From Candidatus Electrothrix aestuarii (GTDB lineage: Bacteria; Desulfobacterota; Desulfobulbia; Desulfobulbales; Desulfobulbaceae): 64,000 nt of DNA. The notes beneath the pieces were generated by a model. That model saw nothing but the letters and a program-made list of their open reading frames with translations, ran no database searches and was not told the DNA's origin. This document shows, one piece after another, positions 36,439 through 51,344 of the stretch. Numbering within the stretch: position 1 is the stretch's first letter; every line of letters begins with the position of its first letter. Position numbers and translations under genes: made by a program. The DNA lies in contig CP159373.1 of NCBI GenBank assembly GCA_032595685.2, positions 1,571,001 through 1,635,000 on the forward strand, in the 5' to 3' direction.

Positions 36439-36546
36439 ATGCCAGCACCGTATCATTCCATCGAAGACCGCCTGAACCGCTACCAAACCGGCCTCACCAA
36501 TGCCCGCGATGTCCCGGAACTGCTAGAGATGCTTGATCGCGGATAG
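36439..36546 (+). pseudogene. N-terminal fragment of a truncated gene
   Basis: A good ribosome binding site (AGGAGG) and an ATG start a 35-codon frame: MPAPYHSIEDRLNRYQTGLT and on to a TAG. The protein-like start and strong translation signals, followed directly by repeat DNA, suggest the 5' end of a longer gene cut off here. I cannot name the parent family with confidence. Confidence 0.5.
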
Positions 36547-36612
36547 CTTTTTGCCTGATTCCAAAGCTCCGGTTTGGGAACTGCTTTTTCGGGAAGCTCT
36601 GCTTCATTCTCC

Positions 36613-36656
36613 GAAGCTGGAGCTTCTGTATTCAAGATGCCCAGGCAGAGCCTGGG
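36613..36656. repeat. Two adjacent short palindromes of an intergenic repeat
   Basis: gaagct-gg-agcttc (36613-36626) and cccaggc-aga-gcctggg (36640-36656) lie in a stretch of the 'gttcccaagctggagctt ... cccaggcagagcctggg' type common between genes in many bacteria. It separates the truncated gene from the RhuM gene. Confidence 0.5.
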
Positions 36657-36703
36657 TACCAGTAAAAAGAAAGTGGATAATTCACCGCACAGGTCAATTT
36701 TTT

Positions 36704-37750: not shown

Positions 37751-37861
37751 TATTGGAGCACCTCAACAACCCTGATTTTAATTCCGTCGAATTCGAGGGA
37801 ATTAACAAACAAGCCGGGTTGAACCAGTAAATCGAACCCACAGGAGCACGATACAGAATCA

Positions 37862-38671
37862 ATGACTGATCAAGGCGAAGTCTTAATTGCTCTTCTCAAT
37901 AATAAAAGCGATTTCAAGATTGTGCGCGCCCGAAACTGGTATCGGATCCCTATAAGCAGTGCGCATAAATGGTTGAAGAATCGTTGGCCACCGCAGTGGA
38001 TAGCTTTCTATCAAACCAAAATATTCGGGCCGGAAGCCTACTCAATCAATTATTACACGAAAGTCATTCAAGTTCGCAAAGTCTATAGGCAACAACTTTT
38101 TCCCAGTGAGCTGCCTAACCGCAAAAGCAACCGGCAATATTATCAGCTCATCCTGAACCCGTTGCAGAAATTACCAAAACCAATACTCAGTCAGCGACGC
38201 CGCAGAATAATTTTTATCCCGACAACATGGTATAAATTTATCCATGCTTCTGAAATTAATGATCTGTACGACGACAGCCCGTTGGAAGACAGTCTGTGGG
38301 CGGAATTAAAACGCCGCAAAATTCCTGCTGAACGACAGGAGTTTGTAAAGGTTGATAATCAGAACTATGCCTTAGATTTCGCTGTCTATTGCTCCAAAGC
38401 AAAAATTGATATCGAAACTGACGGTGACAGCTGGCACACAAACAGAACCGCTGAGGATAACCGTCGGAACAATGCCTTGCAAGCGGCAGGCTGGAAAGTA
38501 CTACGATTTACAACTCAGCAGGTTCAGGAAAAAATGGAGAGCTATTGTATCCGCAATATCACGGAAACCATCAATAATGCTGGGGGAGTGGATGAAGGTA
38601 AGATGGTTGCACGAAAAATCAACCCAAAAGCAAACGGTGCGCATCAGTTATCACTGTTCGACTGTTTTTAA
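37862..38671 (+). CDS. DUF559 / Vsr-like PD-(D/E)xK nuclease-domain protein
   Basis: 269 residues. The C-terminal 120 residues show the restriction-endonuclease-like pattern of DUF559: a Glu in WAELKRRKIPAERQEF, D172 in YALDFAVYC and KIDIETDGDSWH near 181-192, then the closing strand GWKVLRFTTQQV. The N-terminal 130 residues are basic (QRRRRIIFIP) and unassigned; they could bind nucleic acid. Sits 110 nt after rhuM in accessory DNA, so a defence or mobile-element role is plausible but unproven. Confidence 0.72.
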   Translation: MTDQGEVLIALLNNKSDFKIVRARNWYRIPISSAHKWLKNRWPPQWIAFYQTKIFGPEAYSINYYTKVIQVRKVYRQQLFPSELPNRKSNRQYYQLILNPLQKLPKPILSQRRRRIIFIPTTWYKFIHASEINDLYDDSPLEDSLWAELKRRKIPAERQEFVKVDNQNYALDFAVYCSKAKIDIETDGDSWHTNRTAEDNRRNNALQAAGWKVLRFTTQQVQEKMESYCIRNITETINNAGGVDEGKMVARKINPKANGAHQLSLFDCF

Positions 38672-38888
38672 ACCCGCCTTCACTCTTTCGCCTGATTCCC
38701 GGCGAGCTGAGCTGGAGTATCTTGTTGGTCTTCTTTTTTTGTCTTCATAACTGCCGCGATTAGCCGAGATAGAGCTTCAGGATAATAATAGGGGACGTGC
38801 CGTGCCGCCAATCATTTTCACAATCCCTGGAAACCTTGGGAGAACTCCATGTTGACAGACCCGCCCCATAACGGAGGTTCATCACATC

Positions 38889-39053
38889 ATGCCTAATTCA
38901 CTTTTGTTGAGCGGCTGCGCCACGTCTACCACCTTACGAGTGCTGGATGCAAAGACAAAACAGCCCATTGAGGGAGCGGTGGTCTTGGCCGAATGGACCG
39001 CAGGTAGAGGTTTACCTGGGCTCAGCAATACCGTCACAACTCAAGTGGGTTAG
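38889..39053 (+). pseudogene. Truncated lipoprotein gene
   Basis: GGAGGT precedes an ATG and a 54-codon frame: MPNSLLLSGCATSTTLRVLD, then AKTKQPIEGAVVLAEW and a stop. LLSGC is a lipobox and the following segment resembles the first strands of a carboxypeptidase-regulatory-like domain, which normally continues much further. It is therefore most likely a gene remnant, though a very small lipoprotein is possible. The rest of 38672-39128 shows no other gene. Confidence 0.5.
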
Positions 39054-39065
39054 TTACTTTAGAGT

Positions 39066-39086
39066 GCCCTGATTTTGAATCAGGGC
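39066..39086 (+). terminator. Hairpin after the truncated lipoprotein
   Basis: A 9-bp perfect stem (gccctgatt / aatcagggc, 3-nt loop) 12 nt after the stop codon, followed by a weakly T-rich tract. Probably its original terminator. Confidence 0.5.
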
Positions 39087-39128
39087 AACTTTCCTCTCTT
39101 TACTTCACACAAAAAAAGAACTATATTA

Positions 39129-39157
39129 TGTGTAACTTTTATATGGAGGTTTACACA
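39129..39157. promoter_or_regulatory. Candidate VapBC autoregulatory operator
   Basis: tgtgtaa and ttacaca form a perfect 7-bp inverted repeat around the GGAGG ribosome binding site, ending on the start codon of the antitoxin gene. A TATATT -10-like element lies just before it (39123-39128). Binding here would block both transcription and translation. Confidence 0.4.
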
Positions 39158-39357
39158 TGGCTACGAATCTCGCTATAGACGATTGGCTTATTGAAGAAGC
39201 AAAGGCCCTTGGCAAGCACCGCACTAAAAAAGGGGCTGTAATAGAGGCGCTACAGGAATATATCCAGAAAAGACGGCAAATGAAAGTAATGAGTATCTTC
39301 AATACTATAGAGTACGAGCAAGACTATGACTACAAAAAACAAAGGCTCGAAAAATGA
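39157..39357 (+). CDS. vapB: VapB-type antitoxin
   Basis: 66 residues, GGAGG ribosome binding site. N-terminal ribbon-helix-helix-like segment (ATNLAIDDWLIEEAKALG) and a charged C-terminal tail that would wrap the toxin (YEQDYDYKKQRLEK). Its TGA overlaps the toxin ATG by 4 nt. This size and arrangement fit a type II antitoxin. Confidence 0.85.
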   Translation: MATNLAIDDWLIEEAKALGKHRTKKGAVIEALQEYIQKRRQMKVMSIFNTIEYEQDYDYKKQRLEK

Positions 39358-39761
39358 AAGTCATCGTAGATACAAGTGTGTGGTCGCTGGCTTTGAGGAA
39401 AAATATTCCTCAAGATGATCTGTATGTTAACGAGCTGAAAGAGCTTATAAAAGAGTCACGTGTACAGCTTATAGGTCCAGTTCGCCAAGAGCTTCTTAAT
39501 GGAATTAAGCATGAGAACGACTTCAATTCTCTCAAGGATCATTTAAGGGCTTTTAAAGATCTTAAGCTTGAAACAGAAGATTACGAATTAGCATCTGAAT
39601 ATTTCAATAAAGCAAGAAGAAGTGGCATTCAGGGCTCAAACACAGACTTCCTTATTTGTGCAATTTCAACTCGTAATAATATGCCGATTTTAACCACAGA
39701 TAAAGATTTTGAAAATTTTCAATCTGTACTCCCCGTAACTCTGCATGAAGTAAAAAAATGA
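39354..39761 (+). CDS. vapC: VapC-type PIN-domain toxin
   Basis: 135 residues. PIN-domain acidic residues appear in order: D6 (VIVDTSVW), a Glu in PVRQELLNG, and Asp residues in NTDFLICAIS and LTTDKDF. VapC toxins are Mg2+-dependent RNases that usually cut tRNA or rRNA. Overlapping start with vapB. Ends 62 nt before the converging biosynthetic operon. Confidence 0.9.
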   Translation: MKVIVDTSVWSLALRKNIPQDDLYVNELKELIKESRVQLIGPVRQELLNGIKHENDFNSLKDHLRAFKDLKLETEDYELASEYFNKARRSGIQGSNTDFLICAISTRNNMPILTTDKDFENFQSVLPVTLHEVKK

Positions 39762-39823: not shown

Positions 39824-40651
39824 CTAAAATCTTCCTTTGCTCTTGCTTGAGATAACAGTATCCCGCATCCTCAACCCTTTCACCACCTCATAAACCAGTC
39901 CTTTCCCATCAAAAATCAGCAAATCAAAGACCAGCTCCTTCTCTGACAGAACGACAGCAGACACCTTAGTAAGGTATTCCCCATCAGGCTGCGTCGGACG
40001 CAGGATAATCCGCTGATCAATACCAACCGGTAATGGTGTAAAGTCCACCTTCTGCTGCCCCAAAACACTGGCTGCATGCATGGCCCCGTCCAAGGGAAAA
40101 GGAGAACCGAGCTGCTCCTGAACCGTGTAAATAAAGGGCAACGCAGGAGCTTTCACCACGGCCCAGGCACTGTCTTCATGTAGAAATAGTGTATCCTGAA
40201 GGGTTTGATACTGTCGGCCAAAGGGCACCAGTTCGCGATAGAGCTGCTCAACGGGGATTTCTAACAGAGGGTTTGCTGGTTGGGTCGGATCAATCCGGGA
40301 AGGCGGGTGCTCTTCTGACTTCGTCAGGGGAAAAAAGACCTGACTATGCTCCTTAATCCTGCTCATCTTCCCGCATGTCTTCCGGGTGAGCAACTGTGCC
40401 CCTACCCTATCCCCATCAGGCGAAAACTCAACCAGAACATCCAGCTCCGTAGCCTCAGGCGGGATTTCAAGAAACTTGGCAAAGCGCATGTCCTCCATAA
40501 CAGAGATATCTGCGCCGGGAAAGGCTTTGGCAACCTGCGCTACGAGCAGCAGGAGGCTCTCTACCGCAGGGAGAACGATTGTACCGGTAAAGGAATGGTC
40601 CTGGAACCAGGGTTGAACAGAGAGGGTGACAGGGAGGCGCTCGTTACTCAT
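39824..40651 (-). CDS. Stand-alone polyketide-type (double-hotdog) dehydratase-like protein
   Basis: 275 residues, about the size of one PKS DH domain. The first hotdog carries H19-x3-G23-x4-P28 (HSFTGTIVLP), the exact catalytic motif of PS-DH domains. The second carries D188-x3-H192 (DGAMH), matching their D-x3-Q/H motif, after an FGRQYQTLQ segment like the GYxYGPxFQ block. Expected to remove water from a beta-hydroxyacyl-ACP. Last gene of the 13-gene operon; its ATG overlaps the thioesterase stop by 4 nt. Confidence 0.8.
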   Translation of the reverse strand: MSNERLPVTLSVQPWFQDHSFTGTIVLPAVESLLLLVAQVAKAFPGADISVMEDMRFAKFLEIPPEATELDVLVEFSPDGDRVGAQLLTRKTCGKMSRIKEHSQVFFPLTKSEEHPPSRIDPTQPANPLLEIPVEQLYRELVPFGRQYQTLQDTLFLHEDSAWAVVKAPALPFIYTVQEQLGSPFPLDGAMHAASVLGQQKVDFTPLPVGIDQRIILRPTQPDGEYLTKVSAVVLSEKELVFDLLIFDGKGLVYEVVKGLRMRDTVISSKSKGRF

Positions 40652-41127
40652 GAATCAGGAAATTCCTGCCAGAGGCGCAGGGTCTGTGGATCAATCTCCA
40701 CCGGAATCCCCTTCTCATTGATCGCGCAATGGCGGGTAAAACCGGTGCAGGATATTTCGCCTCCCTCCGCCTTGGTGATCAGGTACTCAAACTGGAGCCT
40801 GACGCGTTCGAGTTTTCCGGGCCGGATGTGGATGTACATCAGATCATCATAATAGAGCGGCGAGTAATAGTTCAGCTCGGTCTTGATGATGGGATAGACA
40901 AAGCCGTCCTCCTCTATCTGCTTATATGGGTACTTGGTCTCCCGCATCAGGGAAGCCCTGGCAAATTCGAAATACTTGAGGTAATTGGAATGATAGACCA
41001 CCTGGGAGCGATCAGTATCAATGTACAGGGTCCGCATTTCGCACCGAAACCAGACCAGACCACTGGTGGCATCCCGGACAAAGGAGGACTTTTCTAAGGG
41101 CTGAGGACGAAAGGGTTTAGGTCGCAT
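40648..41127 (-). CDS. 4HBT hotdog thioesterase (YbgC-like)
   Basis: 159 residues. The motif YIDTDRSQVVYHSNYLKYFEF contains the catalytic Asp (D39) of the YbgC/4HBT group. The first 25 residues are an extra basic tail. Probably hydrolyses an acyl-ACP or acyl-CoA of this pathway, setting chain release or proof-reading. Start and the ketosynthase stop share a base (TGATG). Confidence 0.87.
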   Translation of the reverse strand: MRPKPFRPQPLEKSSFVRDATSGLVWFRCEMRTLYIDTDRSQVVYHSNYLKYFEFARASLMRETKYPYKQIEEDGFVYPIIKTELNYYSPLYYDDLMYIHIRPGKLERVRLQFEYLITKAEGGEISCTGFTRHCAINEKGIPVEIDPQTLRLWQEFPDS

Positions 41128-42392
41128 CAGATACCTCGTAAGACCAGGCAGCAGTTGGTTCCACCGAACCCGAAGGAGTTGGACAGGACAAATTCATAGC
41201 TATGATTACGTACCACATTGGGCACCACATCCAGGTCAGCAAAGGCGGGATCCGGGATATGATTCACCGTGGGTAGAACCAAGCCTTTATTCATGGCCTC
41301 GATAGAGAGGGCTGCCTCGATGGCTGCTGAGGCCCCCAGGGAGTGCCCAACCTGGGATTTATTGGCTGAGATCGGTATGCCGGACAGGGCCTCGCCAAAG
41401 ACCCTGCGCAGGCATTCCACCTCAGTTGCATCTCCGGTGGGGGTAGAGGTGCCGTGGGCATTGATGGAGCCGATGTCCTCGGCGCTGATCTCCGCATCAT
41501 CCAAGGCATCATGGATGGCCCGAATTATGGTGGTGGCGTTGGGCCGGGTAAAATGGTGGGCATCTGAGTTCCAGCCTATCCCTAAGACCTCTGCCTTTGG
41601 ATGGAGTCCCAGGGCATGCACTGCCTCTTCTGCGGCCAGCACCAGTGCTGCCGCGCCTTCGGCCAGGACAAAGCCCTTGCGATCCAGACTGAAGGGGCGA
41701 GAGGCCTGGGTTGGATCCGCAAAGGCCCGGTCCTTTTCCCCCACCTTGATGCTGGCCAGCATATTGGAAAACCCCTGGATAATTTCCGGGACCAGGCAGG
41801 TCTCCACCCCGCCTGCCAGCATGAAATCACAGTCCCCGTCCCGGATCATCCTGGCGCTCAGGGCAATGGCATGGTTGCCTGAGGCGCAGGCCCCTTGGGG
41901 GGAGAAGATCGGTCCGGTAAAGCCGGTGAGCATGCCTGCCTTGCCGCCGGGCAGGTTGGCACAGACATTAGGGAGAAGATAGGGGCTGACCTTAAAGGGG
42001 CCGCCGACACGGTAGTTCTCTGTCGCAATTCGGTAGGCATCAGTTCCATTCAGGGCCGAGCCGATCAGGCAGCCTGTCCGTGGACCGGTTTCTTCATTCA
42101 TTTCCAGCCCGGCATGTTCCAGGGCCCGGCGACAGACCTCCATCGTCAGGAAGACATAGGCCGCATTCCAGAGTGAGGCCTCTTTCCGGTCCACATAGGG
42201 GAGCTGGCTGGGGTCCCAGTCCGGGATCTCCCCCACCACATTACTGCGGCTGGCGGTTTCACAGCGGGTGACCCTGCGGAAGCCTGCCTGGCCTTCGAGA
42301 GCGGCCTGCCAGGTTGCGGTAAAGGTATTGCCCAGGGCGGTGGCCGCATCATAGCCGACCACAAAAACACGTCTGTTCTTTGGCGCCTTCAT
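41127..42392 (-). CDS. FabF-type beta-ketoacyl-ACP synthase (KS1)
   Basis: 421 residues, thiolase fold. The catalytic triad is complete: C169 (GACASG), H313 (NAHGTSTPTGD) and H350 (KSQVGHSLGAS). The protein should therefore decarboxylate malonyl-ACP and condense it with an acyl chain. It differs from housekeeping FabF in its loops (for example PRTGCLIGSALNG). Three nt from the KS2 stop, so part of a KS1-KS2 pair. Neither is a Cys-less chain-length factor. Confidence 0.92.
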   Translation of the reverse strand: MKAPKNRRVFVVGYDAATALGNTFTATWQAALEGQAGFRRVTRCETASRSNVVGEIPDWDPSQLPYVDRKEASLWNAAYVFLTMEVCRRALEHAGLEMNEETGPRTGCLIGSALNGTDAYRIATENYRVGGPFKVSPYLLPNVCANLPGGKAGMLTGFTGPIFSPQGACASGNHAIALSARMIRDGDCDFMLAGGVETCLVPEIIQGFSNMLASIKVGEKDRAFADPTQASRPFSLDRKGFVLAEGAAALVLAAEEAVHALGLHPKAEVLGIGWNSDAHHFTRPNATTIIRAIHDALDDAEISAEDIGSINAHGTSTPTGDATEVECLRRVFGEALSGIPISANKSQVGHSLGASAAIEAALSIEAMNKGLVLPTVNHIPDPAFADLDVVPNVVRNHSYEFVLSNSFGFGGTNCCLVLRGI

Positions 42393-42395
42393 GAA

Positions 42396-43646
42396 CTATG
42401 CAACCTTCTGGAGGACGGCGCAGGCATTACAGCCACCAAAGCCGAAGGAGTTTTTCAGGATATACTCCTGCTCAAGCGAGCGGCTGCCTTCAGACACGCA
42501 GTCCAGTTCCAGTTCAGGATCAGGGGTATAGTTGATGGTGGGTGGCAGCAAGCTGTCCTGCATACCCTGGAGGGCAAAGATGGTTTCAATGACGCTGGAG
42601 GCCCCCATCGCATGTCCGATCAGGGATTTATTGGCCGTGACAGGCGGAAGCCCGTCACCGAAAACGGCTCGCATAGCCTCGTATTCCACCTTATCCCCCA
42701 CCTTGGTGGAGGCGGCATGGGCATTGACCACTGCAATATCCTGAGGGAAAATTTTGGCATCAGTCAAGGCATCCTCCATACATTGCCTAACCGTGACCAG
42801 ATGCGGGGCAACAAAATGATGGGCATCCGAGGTCATCCCCCAGCCAGCCAGACGGACAGCGTAAGGTAAACCGTGGGCATCGGCAAATTCCCTGGTCGCA
42901 AGGATTACAGCCCCGGCCCCTTCGGAGATAACAAAGCCCCGCCGATCAAGAGAGAAGGGCCTGCTGGAGCTTTCCGGGGGATCATTTTCCCTCCCCTCTT
43001 TGGGGTTATAGGCCCCGTTCATGGTATGAAAACCTGCTACAATGGGCTCAACCAGGGCAAAATCCACTGCTCCACAGATGGCGAGATCTGCTCGGCCTTG
43101 GGCCATGAGCAGGGCCGCGATGAGCATGGAGGTCAGGCCAGTGGCACAGGCGGTAATAGTAGAGGTAATCGGTCCCTGGGCACCAGTGGCAATGGCGATC
43201 TTGCCGCCGATCATATTGATACAAGAATTGGGATTGGCATAGGGATGGGGAAGCTTGTTCTCGGCCTGCAGGCGTCTGTCTGACCTGAGGACGGCATCCA
43301 AGCCACCAATGGCTGAGCTATAGGTCACAGCTGTGCGCGGCGCCAACTCTGGGGTCAGTTCAATACCGCTGCGCTTCAAGGCGCGAATTACGGTGAGCAG
43401 GGAATATTTAAAGACTGGTGAACTCCAGGCTGCCTGATGGCGGGCAGTGAGAAAGGGATAGTCCAGATGGTCAATATCCGGGACCTGACCAGCAATGCGG
43501 ACCGGGAAGTCCTCTGGCAGGGAAAAGCGGGTGAGCGGGCCAACGCCGCTTTCCCCTGCCAAAGCACGCTGCCATTGCTCATCCAGCTCAATCCCCAAGG
43601 GAGAGACGGCATCACAGCCTATAATGACGGCATCTTTCGCCCCCAT
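42396..43646 (-). CDS. FabF-type beta-ketoacyl-ACP synthase (KS2)
   Basis: 416 residues from the ATG at 43646 (MGAKDAVIIG); a longer frame upstream overlaps the radical SAM gene and is rejected. Triad C167 (ITACATG), H310 (NAHAASTKVGD) and H345 (KSLIGHAMGAS) intact. Diverged from KS1 along its length, so not a recent duplicate. Its place directly after two radical SAM genes suggests it elongates a modified chain. Confidence 0.92.
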   Translation of the reverse strand: MGAKDAVIIGCDAVSPLGIELDEQWQRALAGESGVGPLTRFSLPEDFPVRIAGQVPDIDHLDYPFLTARHQAAWSSPVFKYSLLTVIRALKRSGIELTPELAPRTAVTYSSAIGGLDAVLRSDRRLQAENKLPHPYANPNSCINMIGGKIAIATGAQGPITSTITACATGLTSMLIAALLMAQGRADLAICGAVDFALVEPIVAGFHTMNGAYNPKEGRENDPPESSSRPFSLDRRGFVISEGAGAVILATREFADAHGLPYAVRLAGWGMTSDAHHFVAPHLVTVRQCMEDALTDAKIFPQDIAVVNAHAASTKVGDKVEYEAMRAVFGDGLPPVTANKSLIGHAMGASSVIETIFALQGMQDSLLPPTINYTPDPELELDCVSEGSRSLEQEYILKNSFGFGGCNACAVLQKVA

Positions 43647-43653
43647 CAACAGC

Positions 43654-44652
43654 TTACCAGGGGATGAATTGGTAGAGTTTGGCGAACATCTCGTAGACTT
43701 CGATCCAGTTCTGGAAGTCCTTGGTACTTCGCATGTGGGCACGCTTATTGACCATGACCCAACTCATATGGGCCGCGCCGTCCTTACAGGTGGAACAATC
43801 TCTGGTCTCTGAGGTGCAGCAACGGTGCATGGTCTGAAGGTCTGAGGACCAGCGGATGAAGTTGATCAGACGCTTGGGCTGAGGCTCCCGATTATCTTTG
43901 GAGATGGTCACGGACGGGCATTCCAGCCAGCCAAAAGGACGGCCCAGCATTTGGCCGGTGGTAATGATCTCGTGGTAATATTTGCAGGAAATCACCGTTT
44001 CTGGATAGGCATCCAGCATAGCATCCATCTCGTCCCGGATCGCGATCAGTTCCTCGGGCTTCCAGGAAAATCCATCAACGCCCTCGTCATTGGAGAGAAG
44101 TTGCATATGGACCTTCAGGCCAACATCTTTGATTTTGCGGATGATCTCTTCGGTCTTGCCCAACTGCTTGGGGGTGATGGTATAGAGATAATAGGTATGG
44201 GGGTCACCTGCGTAGTTAGCACTGGAGATCTTAAAAGTGTCCTTGCCGCGCAGGGTTGTCTCATCCTCGGGGTTCCCCCAAAGGGAGAGCCCAACCATCA
44301 TGTCCGGGAAACGATCCCTGGGCACCTTGATTAGGCCATTAGTGGCGCAAAAGGTGGGCATGCGCTTATAAAATGCCTCAATCCTATCCAGGCAGAGAGT
44401 GGGTTCACCGCCGATGAGAATGGCCAGATTTACCCCGCGCTTCATCTCCTTTTCCACAAAGGCATGCCACTTTTCCATGTCATTTTCCTCAGCTGCCGCC
44501 TCATGCTCACCAGAGGAAAAGAAAAAGCAACCTTTGCAGCGCAGGTTGCAGCGGTTGGTCACATCGTAAATGGAACTGCGGAAATTCAGCTTGGAAATTC
44601 GTTTATAGCGCTCGTACCAATGGTCATCCAGCAGGGAACTGACAGTTTTCAT
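43654..44652 (-). CDS. Radical SAM protein A (paralogue of the next gene)
   Basis: 332 residues. The cluster-binding motif C35-x3-C39-x2-C42 (TNRCNLRCKGC) and an IGGEP SAM-binding motif are present. A C-terminal cysteine group (CCTSETRDCSTC) may bind a second Fe-S cluster. YDxTNRCNxRCxGC, the LWGN block and the C-terminal CC...DC..C pattern are shared with the upstream gene. Ladderane-candidate clusters of anammox bacteria contain radical SAM genes in like company. Reaction unknown; 11 nt from its neighbour. Confidence 0.88.
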   Translation of the reverse strand: MKTVSSLLDDHWYERYKRISKLNFRSSIYDVTNRCNLRCKGCFFFSSGEHEAAAEENDMEKWHAFVEKEMKRGVNLAILIGGEPTLCLDRIEAFYKRMPTFCATNGLIKVPRDRFPDMMVGLSLWGNPEDETTLRGKDTFKISSANYAGDPHTYYLYTITPKQLGKTEEIIRKIKDVGLKVHMQLLSNDEGVDGFSWKPEELIAIRDEMDAMLDAYPETVISCKYYHEIITTGQMLGRPFGWLECPSVTISKDNREPQPKRLINFIRWSSDLQTMHRCCTSETRDCSTCKDGAAHMSWVMVNKRAHMRSTKDFQNWIEVYEMFAKLYQFIPW

Positions 44653-44663
44653 AATGGAGAATT

Positions 44664-45731
44664 TTACTGAGTATTTGAAGGCGGATTGCTAAGGCTTGTG
44701 CAGAGATTTGCTCCTTTCTCATAGCCCCTGACCCAAACGCTGAGATAGGTGTCCACATAATCAAGCCAAGCTGAGAAGGTGCTTGGATCGGTGGCATGGC
44801 GATACATCCTGGCCGTGACCACAGCGCTACCCGCTGCATAATGGCGGCAGTCGGCGCAATCTGTATCCGGGACACAGCAGGCCGCATCGCGGTCCCATTG
44901 CAGATCTGTCCTATATTGTCGGAATGAGCGACCCAGGCCGATATCGGTGGAGGGGTTCATTCGGGGATAGGGACAGGAAAACAGGGCATGGAGCCCCTGC
45001 TCATGGGTATGGGCAACGATATTATAGGGAGAAAAGAGGACGGTCTCGGGATATTCTCTCAGCAAGTCCAGCATGACCTTACGGGTCTTTTCCAGGCTTG
45101 CAGCGCTATGACGAAGAGGGCCATTATAGCCCACAGGAGCAGAAAACATGTTAAAGGTGATCTGCTGCTTATTCTTTGCCAGCAACTCGGTCACTTCCCG
45201 GGCATCGTTAATGTTTTCCGAGGTAAAGGTGTAGACAAAGACCGCCCTGGGGTCATCGGCATAGTTTTCCATCTGGCGAGCCAGCATATCTGGGGCCTTC
45301 CGTACCGCCAGGCTGGTCTGATCATTCCCCCAGACAGAAATATGGATACGGTAGTCAATTTCTTTGGGGAGCTGCTTGAGCCCGTTGCTGGCAATGGCAC
45401 CGTGTGGAATCACCTTGTAGGCAGCAGCACAGAGTTCCGGCACCAGAGAGGGTTCAGCACCGGCCAGGACAACAAAGGTGATACCCCGCTCTTTTTCTGC
45501 TTCAAAAAGCTGGAGCCAGGCCTGCTCATCCCGCACTTCCTGGGCAAACTGTTTCTCGCCGTTATAGTAATAACAGCCCTCGCAACGCACATTGCAGCGG
45601 TTGGTCATATCATAGGTGGATTCGCGGAGAAAGAAATATTTGCGCACCTTTTCCCAGCGTTCTTTGATTGCCGGGTCCGCTATGATATCAGAGAATTTAT
45701 ACTCCTGTTTATACTCCGGTTGGGCAGCCAT
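44664..45731 (-). CDS. Radical SAM protein B (paralogue of A)
   Basis: 355 residues. Motif C46-x3-C50-x2-C53 (TNRCNVRCEGC), with AGAEP in place of GGEP, and the C-terminal cluster CCVPDTDCADC. Same overall plan as protein A but clearly diverged, so the pair may act as a heterodimer or at successive chain positions. Follows the acyl carrier protein gene with no spacing (TAG then ATG), tying it to ACP-bound substrates. Confidence 0.88.
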   Translation of the reverse strand: MAAQPEYKQEYKFSDIIADPAIKERWEKVRKYFFLRESTYDMTNRCNVRCEGCYYYNGEKQFAQEVRDEQAWLQLFEAEKERGITFVVLAGAEPSLVPELCAAAYKVIPHGAIASNGLKQLPKEIDYRIHISVWGNDQTSLAVRKAPDMLARQMENYADDPRAVFVYTFTSENINDAREVTELLAKNKQQITFNMFSAPVGYNGPLRHSAASLEKTRKVMLDLLREYPETVLFSPYNIVAHTHEQGLHALFSCPYPRMNPSTDIGLGRSFRQYRTDLQWDRDAACCVPDTDCADCRHYAAGSAVVTARMYRHATDPSTFSAWLDYVDTYLSVWVRGYEKGANLCTSLSNPPSNTQ

Positions 45732-45998
45732 CTATTCGTCACTGTTCAGCTTATCAATGATGTATTGGGCAATGATGCGCACAGTGGTTAGTTTGGGATA
45801 ATCGTCTTCATCAATCCGTATCCCGTATTCATCCCGCAGCACCAAGGCAACTGTGGCCAGATCCATAGAATCGATACCCACCTCATCCACCAGATCCAGA
45901 TCCGCGTCAAAGGTTTCAGGGGTAACGTCCTCAAGCTTGAGTTCGTTAATAATGATTTCAGCAACCCGAAGGACGGTTGTATTAAGGTCGTTACTCAT
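45732..45998 (-). CDS. Acyl carrier protein (ACP1)
   Basis: 88 residues, acidic, helical. The phosphopantetheine site is S44 in GIDSMDLATV. The fourth helix region (LTTVRIIAQYIIDKL) completes the ACP fold. Carries the growing chain for the three ketosynthases. Sits 125 nt after the FabZ-like gene, the largest gap in the operon, with a hairpin in between that could set its separate level of expression. Confidence 0.92.
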   Translation of the reverse strand: MSNDLNTTVLRVAEIIINELKLEDVTPETFDADLDLVDEVGIDSMDLATVALVLRDEYGIRIDEDDYPKLTTVRIIAQYIIDKLNSDE

Positions 45999-46030
45999 GC
46001 ATCCGCTATTTCATTTGTTTATATGAAAAT

Positions 46031-46047
46031 GGTCAGCGCGGCTGACC
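46031..46047 (-). promoter_or_regulatory. Hairpin in the FabZ-ACP1 gap
   Basis: ggtcagc-gcg-gctgacc is a perfect 7-bp stem-loop. On the minus strand it is followed by attttcat, a weak U-tract, so it may attenuate read-through or mark a processing site ahead of acp1. Confidence 0.4.
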
Positions 46048-46123
46048 AAGGTTCCAGCCAGTTTTTATTTTTTATCCCGGCCTCAGTATAAGCTCAGCAT
46101 ATGAAGAGGGGCCAGGATGGGAA

Positions 46124-46432
46124 CTACTGCGCAAGAAAGATACTGCCGGAGCAGACATCTTGATTATCACCGATGATCTTAAAGGTATATTGGTCTTTTT
46201 TCGTACCCGGTGCAACCTGAATATCCAACAGATCACCAGGACGCACGATTTTTCTGAATTTTACCCTGCTCATTCCGGTCAGCTTTACGGGCCTTCCTGT
46301 TGTTTCGGAAAGAAGCGTGACGATCATTTCCAGCTGGGCGACCCCAGGCAGGATGGGATTATCAGGAAAATGGCCGGAGAACCAAGGAGAGTCAGCGGCA
46401 ACTTGTATGGATTTTTGCACGATTGTATCCAT
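46124..46432 (-). CDS. FabZ/FabA-like single-hotdog dehydratase
   Basis: 102 residues, shorter than housekeeping FabZ (about 140-150). The active-site helix reads HFPDNPILPGVAQLE with H21 and E35, the FabZ-type His/Glu pair. A 4HBT-like minimal fold. Likely dehydrates 3-hydroxyacyl-ACP or acts with the double-hotdog protein on specific chain lengths. Confidence 0.88.
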   Translation of the reverse strand: MDTIVQKSIQVAADSPWFSGHFPDNPILPGVAQLEMIVTLLSETTGRPVKLTGMSRVKFRKIVRPGDLLDIQVAPGTKKDQYTFKIIGDNQDVCSGSIFLAQ

Positions 46433-46457
46433 CAGATGAGAACAATATTACCCGGTC

Positions 46458-47498
46458 TTAACATTTTGTCAATGCGGCGTTACGCCAGCAGGTGGGGTCG
46501 GAGGCAAGGTAGTCTCCGGTGAGTTGATAGGCAGCACCCCGGCAGCCGTAACATTCTTCTGCTTTTTCGCAGGTTCGGCAGGCCCCTTTTATGGTCTCCC
46601 GAAAATTTTTTAGATTTTGTATTTCTTCGCTATTATGGAGAATATGGGCAAGCGACCTGTTACGAATATTCCCCAGAGGAATGGTCACCCCGACACAGGG
46701 CATAACATCTCCATTCGAGGTCACGAGGCAAGAAACCTGATGCCGCATACATCGGTTGCCGACCAGAGGGGGCTGGGGTTCCCAATCGCGGCCGAATTTT
46801 TTCCGATCAAGGTCGGCGAGCTGGGTAAAGAGAGTTTGCAATTCTTCAGGACTCACCCCAAGCCAGGTATTTTCTGAGGCATTGGCCTGTGGAGTGAGGA
46901 CTTCAAAGAGGGGCTCAATATCCTGCTCCCGCAACCATTGCCAGATTGCCGGGAGTTCCTCAATATTCTGTTGGCAAATGACAGTGCTCATGGCCAGGTA
47001 GAGCTCCTCCCCTGGATACCCAGCCGCACGCAAGCAACTCAAGGCTCGTTGGATAGACTGGTAGGCACCTTGTTTCCCAGCAAGCGTATCCTGCAACTCC
47101 TCGTCTTGGGAATTGAGTTTTAGGGCAACCCGAACCTTTTCCTGGGCAAGAACATCAGCAAGCTCCTGGGTAATCCCCGAGCCGTTGGTGAACATCTCTA
47201 TTTCCAAACCTTCCTGCCCAAGAAAATGGAGCATTTCCGGGAGGTGGGGGTAAATAGAGGGTTCGCCTCCCAAGATAATAATTTTCCGGGCACCTAAGGC
47301 CTTAGCCTGGAGAATAACGTCCTTAATCTCATCCCGTGAAAGTTCATTTTTCCAGGTATCCTGCCCCTCAACATAGCAGTAGGAGCAGCGGAAATTGCAG
47401 ACCCGGCTGAACTCAATTTCCATCGAGAGGAGTTGGTTGGCAGCAACTGCCTCGCGAATTTCCTGCTCAGTAAATTCAAGGTTATACGTTTTTTGCAT
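46458..47498 (-). CDS. Radical SAM/SPASM-type protein C
   Basis: 346 residues. C34-x3-C38-x2-C41 (CNFRCSYC), ILGGEPSIYP, then a C-terminal SPASM-like region with CLVTSNGDVMPCVGV and CRTCEKAEECYGCRGAAY, enough cysteines for one or two auxiliary 4Fe-4S clusters. SPASM enzymes usually modify peptides, so its presence among lipid-type genes is notable. Start and stop overlap with the upstream gene as TAATG. Confidence 0.88.
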   Translation of the reverse strand: MQKTYNLEFTEQEIREAVAANQLLSMEIEFSRVCNFRCSYCYVEGQDTWKNELSRDEIKDVILQAKALGARKIIILGGEPSIYPHLPEMLHFLGQEGLEIEMFTNGSGITQELADVLAQEKVRVALKLNSQDEELQDTLAGKQGAYQSIQRALSCLRAAGYPGEELYLAMSTVICQQNIEELPAIWQWLREQDIEPLFEVLTPQANASENTWLGVSPEELQTLFTQLADLDRKKFGRDWEPQPPLVGNRCMRHQVSCLVTSNGDVMPCVGVTIPLGNIRNRSLAHILHNSEEIQNLKNFRETIKGACRTCEKAEECYGCRGAAYQLTGDYLASDPTCWRNAALTKC

Positions 47499-48994
47499 TA
47501 TTCTCCAAACTCTTCAAGATCAGCAAACCTGTTCATTCTGTTCAGGCGGTCGATCTCCTGTTGATAACGGGTTGCCCAGTCGTCTTTTTCAAACTGCAAG
47601 GCATAGCGGAGCTTCAAAAAGGGTTTAAAAAAGAAGCGCCAGATAAATATCCAGAGCTGCCCCTGTTTCCCTGTTTGCGATGAGGGATTCCACCACCCCA
47701 ACACAACTTGACGCTGATACCAAAATTGGTAATGGAGCTGGGAGGAATCTAAGTACTTTGTCCGTACATTCGCCCATAAACCATTGTATTTTTTGTAATC
47801 CCTTGGGTTGCTGATTAAACCTTGCTCAAGAAGGTGTTCGCGCATCCCTGTTTTTGGATATGGGGTCAGAATTTGACAATAGGCGGCATCGCACTGAAGA
47901 TCCTTGAAAAATTCGTAATTTTCTTTGATAGATACCTCGGTATCTTCAGGAAATCCGAAAATCAGGCCACCAATGACCATTATTCCATATTTATGACAGT
48001 TTTCAACTGCCTTTTTTGCCGCAGTGATAATATCCCCCTTACAGGCTGTACTCAAGTTTTTTCGGGATACATTTTCAATGCCGAGAAAGATTGAAGCAAA
48101 GCCTGCTGCCGCCATCCTGGCCACCATCTCTTCGTTCTTGGCGATGGTGATACAATCGGCCTGGACAAAGAGTTTCAGCCCCTTGTACTTTCTGGCTATG
48201 ATCGCGTCACAGAGCTCCATAAGCCGGGCCTGATCCAGGACAATATTATCGTCTGTGATAAAGATGCAGCGTGTTCTTTTCTGAAAATAGATGTCGTCAA
48301 TATCCCGCAAAACACGCTCAATAGGAAAGGTCCTGAAGCTCCGCCCGTACATATGTTTCATTGAGCAAAAATTGCAGGAACGGGTACAGCCCCGTGAGGT
48401 CTCGATGACCTCAATCTTGGAATGCACCAGATGGTAGCCCCAGGTCAGACGCCGTTTATCCCGGATAGGCAGCTTCAAGGTGCTCAAATCCAGGTTATCT
48501 CCTCTGGGATTATGGACAAAGTGACCGTCTTTTTTATAGGAGAGCGAGGGGATTGCAGACAGATCATCCTGACCAGCTAAGGCATTGACCAAACGGCGGC
48601 ATGCCTCCTCCCCTTCCCCCCGGATCATAAAATCAAGCCACTGTGCCTCAGGGGAGCGGGCAATTTCCTCATGCATGAGGGTGGCGTGGTAGCCGCCGAT
48701 AACTATCCTGACTCCCGGCAGCAAGCTTTTGATGAGGCGGGCAATGCGAACACAGGTATCATACTGCCAGGCCATAGCCGATAGGCCGACGAGGTCTGGT
48801 TGTCGTTTTCTGATAACCTTGGTCAGATATTTTTTGATTGAGCGACGCTTACGGACCAGATCAATGAGCCAGACATCATGCTCCGCGTCAATATTTCCCC
48901 CCACGCTGGCAATGCCATGATTGGGCAGGTGGACAGCCGCCTCATGGATGAGAATGGGAGCAACATCGGGCATGGATATCAGGATGACTTTCAT
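47498..48994 (-). CDS. B12-binding-domain radical SAM protein D
   Basis: 498 residues. The N-terminal 130 residues form a Rossmann-like cobalamin-binding domain (LVGLSAMAWQYDT, VRIVIGGYHATL); the usual DxHxxG histidine is not evident. The radical SAM core has C203-x3-C207-x2-C210 (CTRSCNFCSM) and GLIFGFPEDT. B12 radical SAM enzymes methylate unactivated carbons or rearrange rings. ATGA overlap with the acyltransferase. Confidence 0.9.
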   Translation of the reverse strand: MKVILISMPDVAPILIHEAAVHLPNHGIASVGGNIDAEHDVWLIDLVRKRRSIKKYLTKVIRKRQPDLVGLSAMAWQYDTCVRIARLIKSLLPGVRIVIGGYHATLMHEEIARSPEAQWLDFMIRGEGEEACRRLVNALAGQDDLSAIPSLSYKKDGHFVHNPRGDNLDLSTLKLPIRDKRRLTWGYHLVHSKIEVIETSRGCTRSCNFCSMKHMYGRSFRTFPIERVLRDIDDIYFQKRTRCIFITDDNIVLDQARLMELCDAIIARKYKGLKLFVQADCITIAKNEEMVARMAAAGFASIFLGIENVSRKNLSTACKGDIITAAKKAVENCHKYGIMVIGGLIFGFPEDTEVSIKENYEFFKDLQCDAAYCQILTPYPKTGMREHLLEQGLISNPRDYKKYNGLWANVRTKYLDSSQLHYQFWYQRQVVLGWWNPSSQTGKQGQLWIFIWRFFFKPFLKLRYALQFEKDDWATRYQQEIDRLNRMNRFADLEEFGE

Positions 48995-49734
48995 GGCTCT
49001 GCGCTACGATACGCTTTCTCTATTTTTCGCATCAGCTGGGTTGCGGAAGGAGGCGATGCACCATCGGTTTCTAAGCGTTGCAATACCTTGAGGGTAATTC
49101 TGTTTTTTTTTCTCGTCGCAAAAAGAAATTTTCCCGGAGGAAAGAGTTTCTCCGTATTGCGCAATTGGAGAAGATAAATGGGCGCGCCAAGGAGCCGGGC
49201 GATTTTTATAGCCCCTTGCTGCATAGCTCCAATTTCTCCACTGCGACTTCGTGTGCCCTCTGGAAAGACAAAGAGGTTACCTCCAGCTTGTAAAAATTTG
49301 GGCATGCTGTCCATCTGGTGAATCATGAGGCGGGAAAAACGTCCTCCTCCGTCGCCCGGTAGATAGCCGGACTTGGCTATGATCTGACCGAAGATCGGCA
49401 TCATGAAAAAACGGGGCTTCACAATGGTCCGGTGGCGAGGAAAAAGGGCGATGAGCATGAGAGGGTCCAGGTAAGAAAGGTGATTGCAGATAATCACCGA
49501 GGAACGAATCGCCGCGACCTCGTTATCTATGCATATTTTTTGTCCTGGAGCGGTTCGGCCAATGATACTGAGGAGGATTTGGAAAAAACGACTGTTCAGC
49601 CCCTGGAAAGTGCGTTCAGAGTCGGAGCTGAACAGGGCCGCAGCATATCGCCAGGAAAAGATACAAAGAAAGCCGAAGATGAACCAGACCCAGTAGAGAA
49701 GGGTTATGCAGAAGTCGATGCCTCGGCTCAACAC
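48991..49734 (-). CDS. PlsC-type 1-acylglycerol-3-phosphate acyltransferase-like
   Basis: 247 residues. I start at a GTG that overlaps the KS3 stop (TAGTG); a longer frame reaches into KS3 and is not credible. A hydrophobic N-terminal anchor, then the LPLAT motifs NHLSYLD (H-x4-D) and FPEGTRSRSGEIG. Transfers an acyl chain to a glycerol-phosphate lipid. In this operon it suggests that the product is put into a membrane lipid. Confidence 0.88.
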   Translation of the reverse strand: MLSRGIDFCITLLYWVWFIFGFLCIFSWRYAAALFSSDSERTFQGLNSRFFQILLSIIGRTAPGQKICIDNEVAAIRSSVIICNHLSYLDPLMLIALFPRHRTIVKPRFFMMPIFGQIIAKSGYLPGDGGGRFSRLMIHQMDSMPKFLQAGGNLFVFPEGTRSRSGEIGAMQQGAIKIARLLGAPIYLLQLRNTEKLFPPGKFLFATRKKNRITLKVLQRLETDGASPPSATQLMRKIEKAYRSAEP

Positions 49735-50966
49735 TATGCCTTTTTCACCAACACACAGGTATTGACCCCGCCAAAGGCGAAATTCTGAATGGCTGCGATA
49801 TTGATGTTCGCGTCCGTGACTTCCTGGCAATGGCGTAGCATGGCGCAGCGTTCGTCAACCTCTTCCAGGTTCAAGGTAGGAGCGACAAAACCTCGCTCCA
49901 TCATGTAGAGGGTCAGAATGAGTTCTATGGCCCCACAGGTTGCCATAGTATGGCCCATATAGCTCTTCAGACCACTGACCAGCGGTTTATCGCCGTATAC
50001 AGAATGCATGGCCTGGGCCTCAATGACATCGCCCATCTTGGTCGCTGTGGCATGGGCACTGATGAAATCCACCTCCTCAGGCGTGATTTCCGCATTTTCA
50101 AGGGCGAGTTTCAGGGTTGCTTTAATGCCTTCGTGATTGGGCAGGATCAGATCACCGCCGTTATTATTGCAGGCAAAGCCGATGATCTCTCCCAGGATAG
50201 TTGCCCCGCGTTTTTTCGCGAACTCATATTCCTCCAGCATCACAGCACCGCCGCCCTCACCAACAACGAGACCATCCCGTTTGCTGTCAAAGGGCCGTGG
50301 GGTGCATTCTGGTGTTTCGTTATATTTGACAGAGCAGGCCAGCAGGTTATCGAACACAGCCACAGTGGTGGTATCGTATTCATCTGCCCCGCCACAGAGC
50401 ATGGCATCCTGCATCCCGAATTTAATCGCCTCATAGCCGTAGCCGATGGATTGGCTACTGGTGGTGCAGGCCGTGGATGAGGAGATAACCCTTCCAGTAA
50501 TACCGAACATACGGGTTATATTCACTGCCGTGGTATGGACCATCGAACGGAGATAGTCTACAGCCCCGATGGAGGAAAATTTTGTGTCAAGTTCGTTGAA
50601 ATAGGCTTTATATATATCGCGCTGCACTGTGGGACTGCCGTGGATCGAACCAAAGGCAACACCGAGGCGGCCTGAGGTAATGAAATCCTGGTCTAGGCCA
50701 GACTGCTCTAAGACATCTTTGGCAACCTGACAGGCATAATAGGCCACCGGGCCCATAGTTTTACGGAAGTAGCGGGAAAAATTATACTCAATGGGATAGC
50801 CTACGGTCCCGAAGACCCGGGAATGGATATGCTTGGTCAGCAGACCATCGTCTCGAAGCGGGGCCACACCGGATTTGCCCTGGAGAAGACTGTCTATGAT
50901 GTCTTGTTTATCGTACCCGATGGGGGTAATTGCGGAACATGCGGTGATGACGACACGTCTTTTCAT
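49734..50966 (-). CDS. FabF-type beta-ketoacyl-ACP synthase (KS3)
   Basis: 410 residues. Triad C167 (STACTTSSQSIG), H305 (SAHATATKMGD) and H339 (KSYMGHTMATCG). The TACTTSSQ nucleophile region and the GSIHGSP loop differ from KS1 and KS2, placing it in another branch, closer to secondary-metabolite KS such as those of aryl-polyene-type pathways. Second gene of the operon. Confidence 0.9.
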   Translation of the reverse strand: MKRRVVITACSAITPIGYDKQDIIDSLLQGKSGVAPLRDDGLLTKHIHSRVFGTVGYPIEYNFSRYFRKTMGPVAYYACQVAKDVLEQSGLDQDFITSGRLGVAFGSIHGSPTVQRDIYKAYFNELDTKFSSIGAVDYLRSMVHTTAVNITRMFGITGRVISSSTACTTSSQSIGYGYEAIKFGMQDAMLCGGADEYDTTTVAVFDNLLACSVKYNETPECTPRPFDSKRDGLVVGEGGGAVMLEEYEFAKKRGATILGEIIGFACNNNGGDLILPNHEGIKATLKLALENAEITPEEVDFISAHATATKMGDVIEAQAMHSVYGDKPLVSGLKSYMGHTMATCGAIELILTLYMMERGFVAPTLNLEEVDERCAMLRHCQEVTDANINIAAIQNFAFGGVNTCVLVKKA

Positions 50967-50990
50967 GAGGATAATTGAGGTAGCTAAATA

Positions 50991-51012
50991 ACCCCGCCCC
51001 TTGGGGTGGGGT
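50991..51012. promoter_or_regulatory. G+C-rich hairpin between ACP2 and KS3
   Basis: accccgcccc and ggggtggggt form a near-perfect inverted repeat (one G-T pair) just downstream of acp2 on the minus strand. It resembles the hairpin at 3900-3922. It could stabilise or attenuate the operon mRNA after the small first gene. Confidence 0.4.
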
Positions 51013-51086
51013 TGATAAAAAATGTTCTGCTGTTACGCCGCAAGCAGCGGAGTATCAGACCCGGAGTTTTGCAATGAACAGCGGAG

Positions 51087-51344
51087 TTATTCGGGGCTAG
51101 AGCCTGTGAGCTTCTCTATATAATCAAGAATATCATTAATAGTCCTGATCTCCATAGCCTGCTCTTTTTCCTCTCTGGTGAGCGTTTTATCGAGGATATG
51201 CTCTATTTTTCCCAGTAACTCGATAGCGTCGATACTGTCAAAATTATGGTCATCGCGGAGATTATCATCCAAGCCTGGATTTTCAAATTCAAAATCCTCT
51301 GTTAGAATCGTGAGGATACGCTCTTGCAATTCATCTCTGGTCAT
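51087..51344 (-). CDS. Acyl carrier protein (ACP2)
   Basis: 85 residues. Phosphopantetheine site S37 in HNFDSIDAIELL; otherwise a standard four-helix ACP (LDDNLRDD, RTINDILDYIEKL). Distinct from ACP1, so each may serve particular ketosynthases. First gene of the operon; the promoter should lie in 51345-51498. Confidence 0.92.
   Translation of the reverse strand: MTRDELQERILTILTEDFEFENPGLDDNLRDDHNFDSIDAIELLGKIEHILDKTLTREEKEQAMEIRTINDILDYIEKLTGSSPE

Follow-up and report, generated by a model that had tools for sequence, protein, structure and literature searches.

A stretch of 64,000 nt in Candidatus Electrothrix aestuarii (positions 1571001–1635000 of CP159373.1, a single contig of 5,110,699 bases) is termed here the window. 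It contains an operon of 13 open reading frames, all in the same direction on the minus strand from window position 51344 down to 39824, which include acyl carrier proteins (ACP), ketosynthases (KS) and four radical S-adenosylmethionine (SAM) proteins (rSAM). With a probability of about 0.6, the operon belongs to a type II polyene-lipid pathway whose genes are dispersed and which uses aryl-polyene (APE) logic modified for anaerobic radical chemistry. In related genomes its genes belong to a larger locus, common to many bacteria of the sulfate-reducing type; the most likely role of this locus is to make an unusual envelope lipid by aryl-polyene logic with six radical enzymes added. The pathway appears to overlap the "ladderane-type" clusters of Rattray et al. 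(2009), and its product may be a modified polyene or an unsaturated acyl lipid.

The genes of the operon are given below in their order, with nearest profile models and conserved residues (all on the minus strand, window coordinates).

51087..51344, minus: ACP2, acyl carrier protein, ApeE-like; nearest NCBIfam model PRK05350, below cut-off; Ser37 in 7/7; best APE match ACPb
49734..50966, minus: KS3, ketosynthase, ApeR-like; nearest PRK09116 (404 bits, cut-off 470); 351 bits to APE KS_R
48991..49830, minus: PlsC-type acyltransferase, ApeD-like; HX4D in 7/7; 76 bits to APE lysophospholipid acyltransferase
47498..48994, minus: B12-binding radical SAM protein (B12-rSAM); nearest NCBIfam model BchE (175 bits, cut-off 481); CX3CX2C in 5/5
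46458..47498, minus: SPASM-type radical SAM protein (SPASM-rSAM); nearest heme b synthase/NirJ2 models, far below cut-offs; CX3CX2C in 6/6
46124..46432, minus: short FabZ/ApeI-like hot-dog protein; PF22818 ApeI-like, 30.8 bits (cut-off 28.5); His21 in 57/57 relatives
45732..45998, minus: ACP1, acyl carrier protein; nearest PRK09184, below cut-off; Ser44 in 60/60
44664..45731, minus: rSAMa, radical SAM protein with Cys-rich C-terminus; CX3CX2C and C253, C285, C286, C292, C295 in 76/76
43654..44652, minus: rSAMb, paralog of rSAMa; C35/C39/C42 and C245, C278, C279, C286, C289 in 69/69
42396..43742, minus: KS2, FabF-type ketosynthase; Cys-His-His in 67/67
41127..42392, minus: KS1, FabF-type ketosynthase; Cys-His-His in 54/54
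40648..41127, minus: 4HBT/YbgC-type thioesterase, ApeK-like; TIGR00051, 81.4 bits (cut-off 68.7); 67 bits to APE thioesterase
39824..40651, minus: PS-DH, polyketide synthase (PKS)-type double-hot-dog dehydratase; H19, D188, H192 in 40/40; without APE match

The locus in related genomes and its dispersal in the window genome

A scan of genome contigs with rSAMb gave 271 relatives, and the locus counts refer to the best 80 of these 271. In relatives the locus spans ~30 kb and consists of two divergent operons with ~28 genes, six of them radical SAM; this is a composite assembled from overlapping positions on the same contigs, not one stretch read end to end. The left operon encodes an ApeP-like dehydratase, a ketoreductase, LolA, a lipoprotein, a B12-rSAM (termed B12x), an AMP-ligase, a fatty-acid-kinase-like protein (a FakA/DegV-like fusion), a family 2 glycosyltransferase (GT2), an LpxL-like protein, ACP2, KS3, PlsC, B12-rSAM and SPASM-rSAM. 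The right operon encodes ACP3, a KS joined to a chain-length factor (KS/CLF), a TIGR04072 "ladderane" rSAM, FabZ, ACP1, rSAMa, rSAMb, KS2, KS1, the thioesterase, PS-DH, GT25, an MMPL-methyltransferase and a deacetylase.

The core order ACP1-rSAMa-rSAMb-KS2-KS1-4HBT-PSDH is found in 52/52 loci of sufficient length, and FabZ is also detected in 46 of these 52. Among the 54 loci for which 7.5 kb or more is available upstream, ACP3 is present in 39, TIGR04072 and the KS/CLF fusion in 38 each, the ApeP-like dehydratase in 35, the ketoreductase, LolA and the lipoprotein in 34 each, and B12x in 31; ACP2, KS3 and PlsC lie upstream of the core in 6/54. Where at least 9 kb is available downstream (n = 50), GT25 and the MMPL-type protein are found in 31 loci each and a polysaccharide-deacetylase-like protein in 26. 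The MMPL-type protein is fused to a methyltransferase in the one relative scanned.

KS3 and rSAMa share a contig in 17 genomes. Their distance is 5.1–8.1 kb in six (four genomes of the window genus, G036 and G042) and 15–33 kb in ten. The left-operon run was checked in 10 genomes selected for having KS3 and the core on the same contig at 15–33 kb. ACP2, KS3 and SPASM-rSAM are present in 10/10, PlsC was detected in 9 and an ortholog of B12-rSAM in 8. The run from ACP2 to SPASM-rSAM is continuous with the LpxL-like, GT2, FakA/DegV-like and AMP-ligase genes in 8/10, and B12x comes next in 7; the ACP2-SPASM block of G063 and of G073 stands apart from the rest of the left operon. A grouping into "type I" loci (KS/CLF-TIGR04072 upstream) and "type II" loci (ACP2-KS3-PlsC upstream) was considered and given up, as the KS3 search and the upstream DNA point to one system with differing arrangement. 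On contig C85 of G088, an open reading frame of 1623 aa lies between TIGR04072 and FabZ, and KS1 is ~5 kb from KS2; thus the locus tolerates insertions.

The window operon is a REARRANGEMENT: the most distal genes of the left operon, ACP2 to SPASM-rSAM, are joined to most of the right operon (FabZ to PS-DH). The same 13 genes form an operon in three more genomes of the genus (L030–L032). Other locus genes, 14 out of 15, are at six further places of the same genome; the 15th, a deacetylase-like gene, was without a genome-wide search.

genome 945044–948861: GT25 and MMPL-methyltransferase
genome 995454–996143: GT2 (67%)
genome 1423398–1427316: TIGR04072, KS/CLF and ACP3
genome 1879078–1883645: B12x, AMP-ligase and FakA/DegV-like
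genome 1911244–1912110: LpxL-like (66%)
genome 1946204–1948689: lipoprotein, LolA, ketoreductase and ApeP-like

From its wider spread, the relatives' arrangement appears to be the ancestral one. A preliminary description of the window, made from the letters alone, presented the operon as a candidate pathway. The set of acyl-ACP and radical SAM genes stands, but the operon holds only joined parts of the ~30-kb, six-radical-SAM locus, the rest being elsewhere in the genome. Likewise, the absence of a ketoreductase noted there is true of the operon, but a ketoreductase is present at genome positions 1947507–1948250; it shares 73% identity with the ketoreductase found next to the core in relatives.

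rSAMb is found in 86/257 genomes of the order and in 29/395 genomes of a phylum sample (E 1e-15), in one of these only weakly. Four members of the genus (G001, G002, G004 and G005; completeness 97, 93, 89 and 69%) gave no match to rSAMb. The titles of the best 80 rSAMb loci name Desulfobulbaceae, Desulfocapsaceae, Desulfobacterales and similar groups, or are unresolved (Deltaproteobacteria, Proteobacteria, "bacterium"). Carriers include Desulfogranum japonicum DSM 18378, D. mediterraneum DSM 13871, Desulfofustis glycolicus DSM 9705, Desulfobulbus rhabdoformis DSM 8777 and Desulfosarcina widdelii, so that cultured carriers of the core can be named.

KS3 and the core occur together: among 96 relatives, KS3 orthologs (73–100%) are in 35, the core in 34 and both in 32. 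KS3 is thus in 32/34 core-bearing genomes versus 3/62 without a detected core. In the phylum sample TIGR04072 is found in 156/395 genomes (E 1e-60) and exceeds its cut-off in 84/395. It is present in 26/28 rSAMb genomes versus 130/367 other genomes, and lies within 12 kb of rSAMb in 18/28 (these 28 are the 29 without G112, whose match is only E 9.9e-36; G449 is not in the distance count). All co-occurrence counts treat the genomes as independent although they are related. The TIGR04072 protein of a relative (L047) gave no plasmid relatives at E 1e-20.

Conservation and structure of the operon proteins

The preliminary description had assigned domains to 13 co-directional genes; open reading frames are present at all of these places, and Pfam and NCBIfam profile searches agree with the domains. 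It had also described the junctions as overlaps or tiny gaps. Most junctions do overlap or are 25 nt or less, but ACP2 and KS3 are separated by 120 nt and ACP1 and FabZ by 125 nt. The two gaps have these same lengths in L030 and are ~30 nt in L031 and L032 by the open reading frame calls. Hairpins are predicted in the two stretches (window positions 50967–51086 and 45999–46123), and a search of the window and ten other genome stretches gave no further copies of them. A terminator scan gave the level of shuffled sequence and a promoter scan was somewhat above it; both are uninformative. By ortholog lengths, two open reading frames are probably over-long as called: PlsC (TTG start), with a likely start near 49734, and KS2 (GTG start), with one near 43640.

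All 13 genes have dN/dS values of 0.025–0.24 against each of two genomes of the genus (L031, L032), the lowest in ACP1 and rSAMb and the highest in PS-DH. The operon is under purifying selection. These values, together with the core order kept in 52/52 loci, show that the operon is not a chance assembly. The residues which we take to be catalytic are present: Cys-His-His in KS1, KS2 and KS3, the ACP serines, HX4D in PlsC, the thioesterase Asp and the PS-DH His/Asp. The CX3CX2C motif is found in all four radical SAM proteins of the window.

rSAMa and rSAMb have ~31% identity, and the paralogous pair proposed in the preliminary description is borne out. Five extra Cys residues near the C-terminus of both suggest an auxiliary iron-sulfur cluster. 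An AlphaFold model of rSAMb (pLDDT 84.9, pTM 0.88) has as its nearest solved folds CteB (5why), SkfB, TigE, viperin and GDGT-MAS, with TM-scores of 0.56 or less among the matches listed; scores in this range give the superfamily and not the reaction. A first model from 21 sequences was poor (pLDDT 58.4) and was not used. A PDB profile search with rSAMa and rSAMb shows SkfB as the best match (E 2.8e-10). The PDB neighbours of the window B12-rSAM are 9ccb, apramycin oxidoreductase 4 (6fd2), TokK and OxsB.

A relationship of the FabZ-like protein to anammox FabZ was considered and rejected. The β-hydroxyacyl-ACP dehydratases 7qv0, 8ayb, 8ayc and 8ayi, which we take to be the anammox FabZ, score below 3esi and 6qsr, the latter presumably ApeI of Xenorhabdus.

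Comparison with aryl-polyene and ladderane-type clusters

We ran profile hidden Markov models of the locus families against the 19 coding sequences of the APE cluster in Pseudoalteromonas sp. Bsw20308 (L157) and 578 background open reading frames. Sixteen families, one of them weakly, match their APE counterparts best (14 families, GT2 and LpxL-like). ACP2 matches ACPb, and ACP1 and ACP3 match ACPa. KS3 matches KS_R (351 bits), and KS/CLF matches KS_O (285; CLF 35). The other best matches are PlsC to the lysophospholipid acyltransferase (76), FabZ to ApeI (62), ApeP-like to ApeP (46), ketoreductase to KR (259), 4HBT to the thioesterase (67), LolA to LolA (38), AMP-ligase to AMP-ligase (140), GT2 to GT2 (141), LpxL-like to the acyltransferase (61), and MMPL to a 747-residue protein (43), taken as the RND transporter. 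KS1 and KS2 match both APE ketosynthases generically. In the 19-gene cluster no counterpart was found for PS-DH, GT25, the deacetylase, FakA/DegV-like or the rSAMs.

The locus shares with APE clusters the ApeE/ApeF-like ACPs, an ApeR-like KS, a KS with chain-length factor, candidate ApeI- and ApeP-like dehydratases, a ketoreductase, the 4HBT thioesterase, PlsC- and LpxL-type acyltransferases, GT2, the AMP-ligase, LolA, an RND/MMPL transporter, a methyltransferase and a lipoprotein (roles of the E. coli ape genes A–R as set out in PMC8253772). Unlike APE clusters, it has six radical SAM genes, KS1 and KS2, PS-DH and a fatty-acid-kinase-like protein, the KS is fused to the CLF, and the MMPL protein to the methyltransferase. 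The KS/chain-length-factor pair (ApeO/ApeC) is present as the fused KS/CLF at genome positions 1424756–1427050, outside the window operon; its N-terminal half has Cys-His-His in 39/39, and its C-terminal half has Cys replaced by Asp in 34/38. The ApeP-like dehydratase of a relative scores 20.9 to PF22817 (cut-off 27).

The preliminary description had named an aryl-polyene cluster as an example of a characterised pathway that would speak against it. The closest characterised layout is indeed that of such a cluster, yet KS3, KS/CLF, ACP1 and ACP2 score below the cut-offs of PRK09116, PRK09185, PRK09184 and PRK05350, which the APE proteins exceed. The locus is thus laid out like an APE cluster and is not filed as one. 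A likeness to flexirubin is unspecific: the ketoreductase of L047, the only gene compared, has 281 bits to FlxB (cut-off 340), second after a FabG model, and the Pseudoalteromonas APE ketoreductase also has 282 bits to FlxB.

A link to ladderane-candidate gene sets was proposed in the preliminary description for what it saw as a dedicated acyl-ACP pathway with radical SAM proteins. This is supported by TIGR04072 (rSAM_ladder_B12), which is upstream of the core in 38/54 loci and has a copy over the cut-off (378 bits vs 360) at genome positions 1423398–1424759, 191 kb from the operon. The operon's own B12-rSAM has 96 bits to this model, below the cut-off of 360. In Kuenenia, the roles given for kuste3335–3352 are FabZ, ACPs, FabG, two adjacent rSAMs, FabFs, a ligase, a glycosyltransferase, a membrane protein, methyltransferases and a polysaccharide-deacetylase-like protein (Table 2 of PMC4790861; PMC2649909). 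By roles in the text of these papers, the locus shares with ladderane-type clusters the B12-rSAM (TIGR04072 here), an adjacent rSAM pair, FabF paralogs, FabZ, ACPs, FabG, the ligase, a glycosyltransferase, a membrane protein compared with Mmp, a methyltransferase and a polysaccharide-deacetylase-like protein. In contrast to those clusters, a phytoene-desaturase-like gene is not among the 13 operon genes or the other locus genes identified. PlsC, PS-DH, 4HBT and FakA/DegV-like are outside the ladderane gene lists given in these papers, which were compared by role and not by sequence.

Elsewhere in the genome, at 1434.9–1440.2 kb (L029 12928–18218), there are two phytoene-desaturase-like FAD proteins (1434.9–1438.5 kb), an ACP-like gene and a KS; this set resembles Kuenenia kuste3603–3608 in roles. 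A second TIGR04072-type radical SAM gene over the cut-off (385 bits) is at 4334065–4335420 (L149 6060–7490).

"Ladderane" clusters outside anammox bacteria, for which antiSMASH annotations in Desulfobacterota metagenome-assembled genomes are described as of unknown function (PMC9902471; compare PMC2649909), gain here a concrete gene list, and this set is tied to the well-studied aryl-polyene logic, including envelope export. The titles and abstract openings listed in the literature searches gave neither a link between ladderane-type and aryl-polyene clusters nor an account of this locus. Searches for papers on a possible link to C31 hydrocarbons brought up nothing relevant.

Proposed pathway and alternative explanations

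From the gene content and order, conservation, co-occurrence, motif residues and family matches observed, the following reactions, order of steps and product are proposed. The AMP-ligase, encoded elsewhere in the genome, would load a starter acid on an ACP, and KS3 would start the chain. Extension would be carried out by the KS/CLF fusion, also encoded elsewhere, with ACP3 and ACP1, the dedicated ketoreductase and the dehydratases (ApeP-like, FabZ/ApeI-like and PS-DH); KS1 and KS2 may perform additional, specialised condensations. rSAMa and rSAMb, SPASM-rSAM and the three B12-type rSAMs may use radical chemistry (C-C, C-H or methyl) to modify the chain or the starter. Release and reactivation of the acid would fall to the thioesterase and the fatty-acid-kinase-like protein, and PlsC and the LpxL-like acyltransferase would attach it to a glycerolipid or glycolipid. 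The glycerolipid-type acyltransferase of the preliminary description is upheld in that PlsC belongs to the conserved genes. Transport of the product to the outer envelope would be the task of LolA, the lipoprotein and the MMPL-type transporter. The locus genes include no identified enoyl reductase, so double bonds would remain, which fits a polyene, although a housekeeping reductase could act. (The top Pfam family of the relatives' short-chain dehydrogenase is named enoyl reductase; NCBIfam gives ketoreductase.)

Several observations weigh against this pathway. The set is broken up in the window genus, and joint action of its parts is assumed from synteny elsewhere. Linkage is not universal: KS/CLF and TIGR04072 are both missing upstream in 13/54 loci, KS3 and the core lie 1.7 Mb apart in G014, and KS3 is missing from G010 and G050, which do have the core. 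TIGR04072 is spread wider than the core and occurs in many core-less genomes. The background used in the Pseudoalteromonas comparison is poor in the same superfamilies, so that the comparison ranks APE genes and not APE against other systems, and the match of the lipoprotein to DUF3261 is weak (16 bits, E 1.5e-4). The top models are the same as for APE proteins but are below cut-off for ACP2 (PRK05350, 42/65 bits), ACP1 (PRK09184, 44/70) and KS3 (PRK09116, 404/470), and KS/CLF has 357 bits against the PRK09185 cut-off of 407. The FabZ-like protein is without the usual acid in at least 50/57 relatives, which have K, G, S, H or A at position 35, where the window protein has E; H21 is invariant. 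An aromatic ammonia-lyase (PF00221) was not found in the genome, and no metabolite is known for the locus.

The missing ammonia-lyase also counts against a true aryl-polyene pathway with an aromatic starter, in which the radical SAM proteins would be tailoring extras. The family matches to the Pseudoalteromonas cluster favour such a pathway, as does the AMP-ligase, for which 4-coumarate-CoA ligase is the nearest model in NCBIfam (92 bits, cut-off 335), the same as for the Pseudoalteromonas APE ligase (76.5 bits). The ape cluster of E. coli CFT073, as listed in PMC8253772, has no ammonia-lyase and uses 4-hydroxybenzoate. The ACP, KS3 and KS/CLF scores below cut-offs that APE proteins pass, and the additional KS1, KS2 and PS-DH, make this explanation unlikely. 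Somewhat less unlikely is a ladderane-type or anaerobic polyunsaturated fatty acid system (Rattray et al. 2009), that is, an offshoot of type II fatty-acid synthesis in which a polyunsaturated chain is cyclised by radical SAM proteins, as proposed for anammox bacteria. TIGR04072 beside the core in relatives, the recurrence of many kuste3335–3352 roles in the intact locus (as given in PMC4790861 and PMC2649909) and the two phytoene-desaturase-like genes in the same genome argue for it; the text of PMC2649909 reports that Desulfotalea psychrophila yielded no ladderanes, the locus genes identified do not include a phytoene-desaturase-like gene, and the anammox likeness is one of roles, without sequence comparison. 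This explanation overlaps the APE-like polyene-lipid pathway and does not exclude it.

Between these two in probability, and speculative, is an unrecognised class of anaerobic polyene-lipid pathways, in which APE machinery and six radical SAM proteins cyclise or cross-link a conjugated chain and the anammox ladderane genes form one branch. Should the product prove to be a polyene lipid that is cyclised or radical-modified, the long-standing question of ladderane formation would become testable in organisms that can be grown; if the anammox genes are one branch, sulfate reducers that grow in culture (Desulfobulbus, Desulfogranum, Desulfosarcina) could offer model hosts in which to study ring formation of the ladderane kind.

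The FabF-like KS1 and KS2, the FabZ-like protein and PlsC would also fit an anaerobic form of the ordinary synthesis of unsaturated or branched fatty acids for phospholipids. This explanation is very improbable, since rSAMb is present in only 86/257 genomes of the order and is thus not housekeeping, and the locus has KS/CLF, LolA/MMPL and six rSAM genes, which are not known to be parts of ordinary fatty-acid synthesis. There is just as little chance that the acyl product is a small signal or secondary metabolite and not a membrane lipid. Relatives of rSAMb (~29–34%) on plasmids lie beside a "phenylacetic acid catabolic protein" and a thioesterase or MaoC, or beside a nonribosomal peptide synthetase (NRPS), which would fit such a product, but PlsC, LpxL-like, GT2, LolA and MMPL of the locus point to an envelope lipid. 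The plasmids are NZ_CP156687, NZ_CP098773 and NZ_AP019785 (L141–L143), and in the NRPS case the rSAMb relative lies between a dioxygenase and the NRPS. In other settings, too, this rSAM family seems to act together with acyl-thioester enzymes.

The genes upstream of the operon are a SEC-C motif gene, an NrdJ-type ribonucleotide reductase and an L-aspartate oxidase. Downstream, on the opposite strand, is a VapC-type toxin gene. RhuM-family, DUF559 and VapC-type genes are at window positions 36533–39761, beside the 3′ end of the operon, and are possibly a mobile or defence patch at a rearranged border.

Just outside the low end of the window, at genome 1564–1569 kb (L025 6218–11084), minus-strand genes encode a KASIII-like protein, an HpnR-like B12 radical SAM protein, an ACP-like protein, and an ABC permease and ATPase. 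This is another acyl-ACP and radical SAM cluster, separate from the operon. A 2560-aa PKS-like protein is encoded at 2854.8–2862.5 kb (L151 6800–14482), which scores 532 bits against PfaA (cut-off 1010) and 551 bits against PKS_plus_SDR (cut-off 1740).

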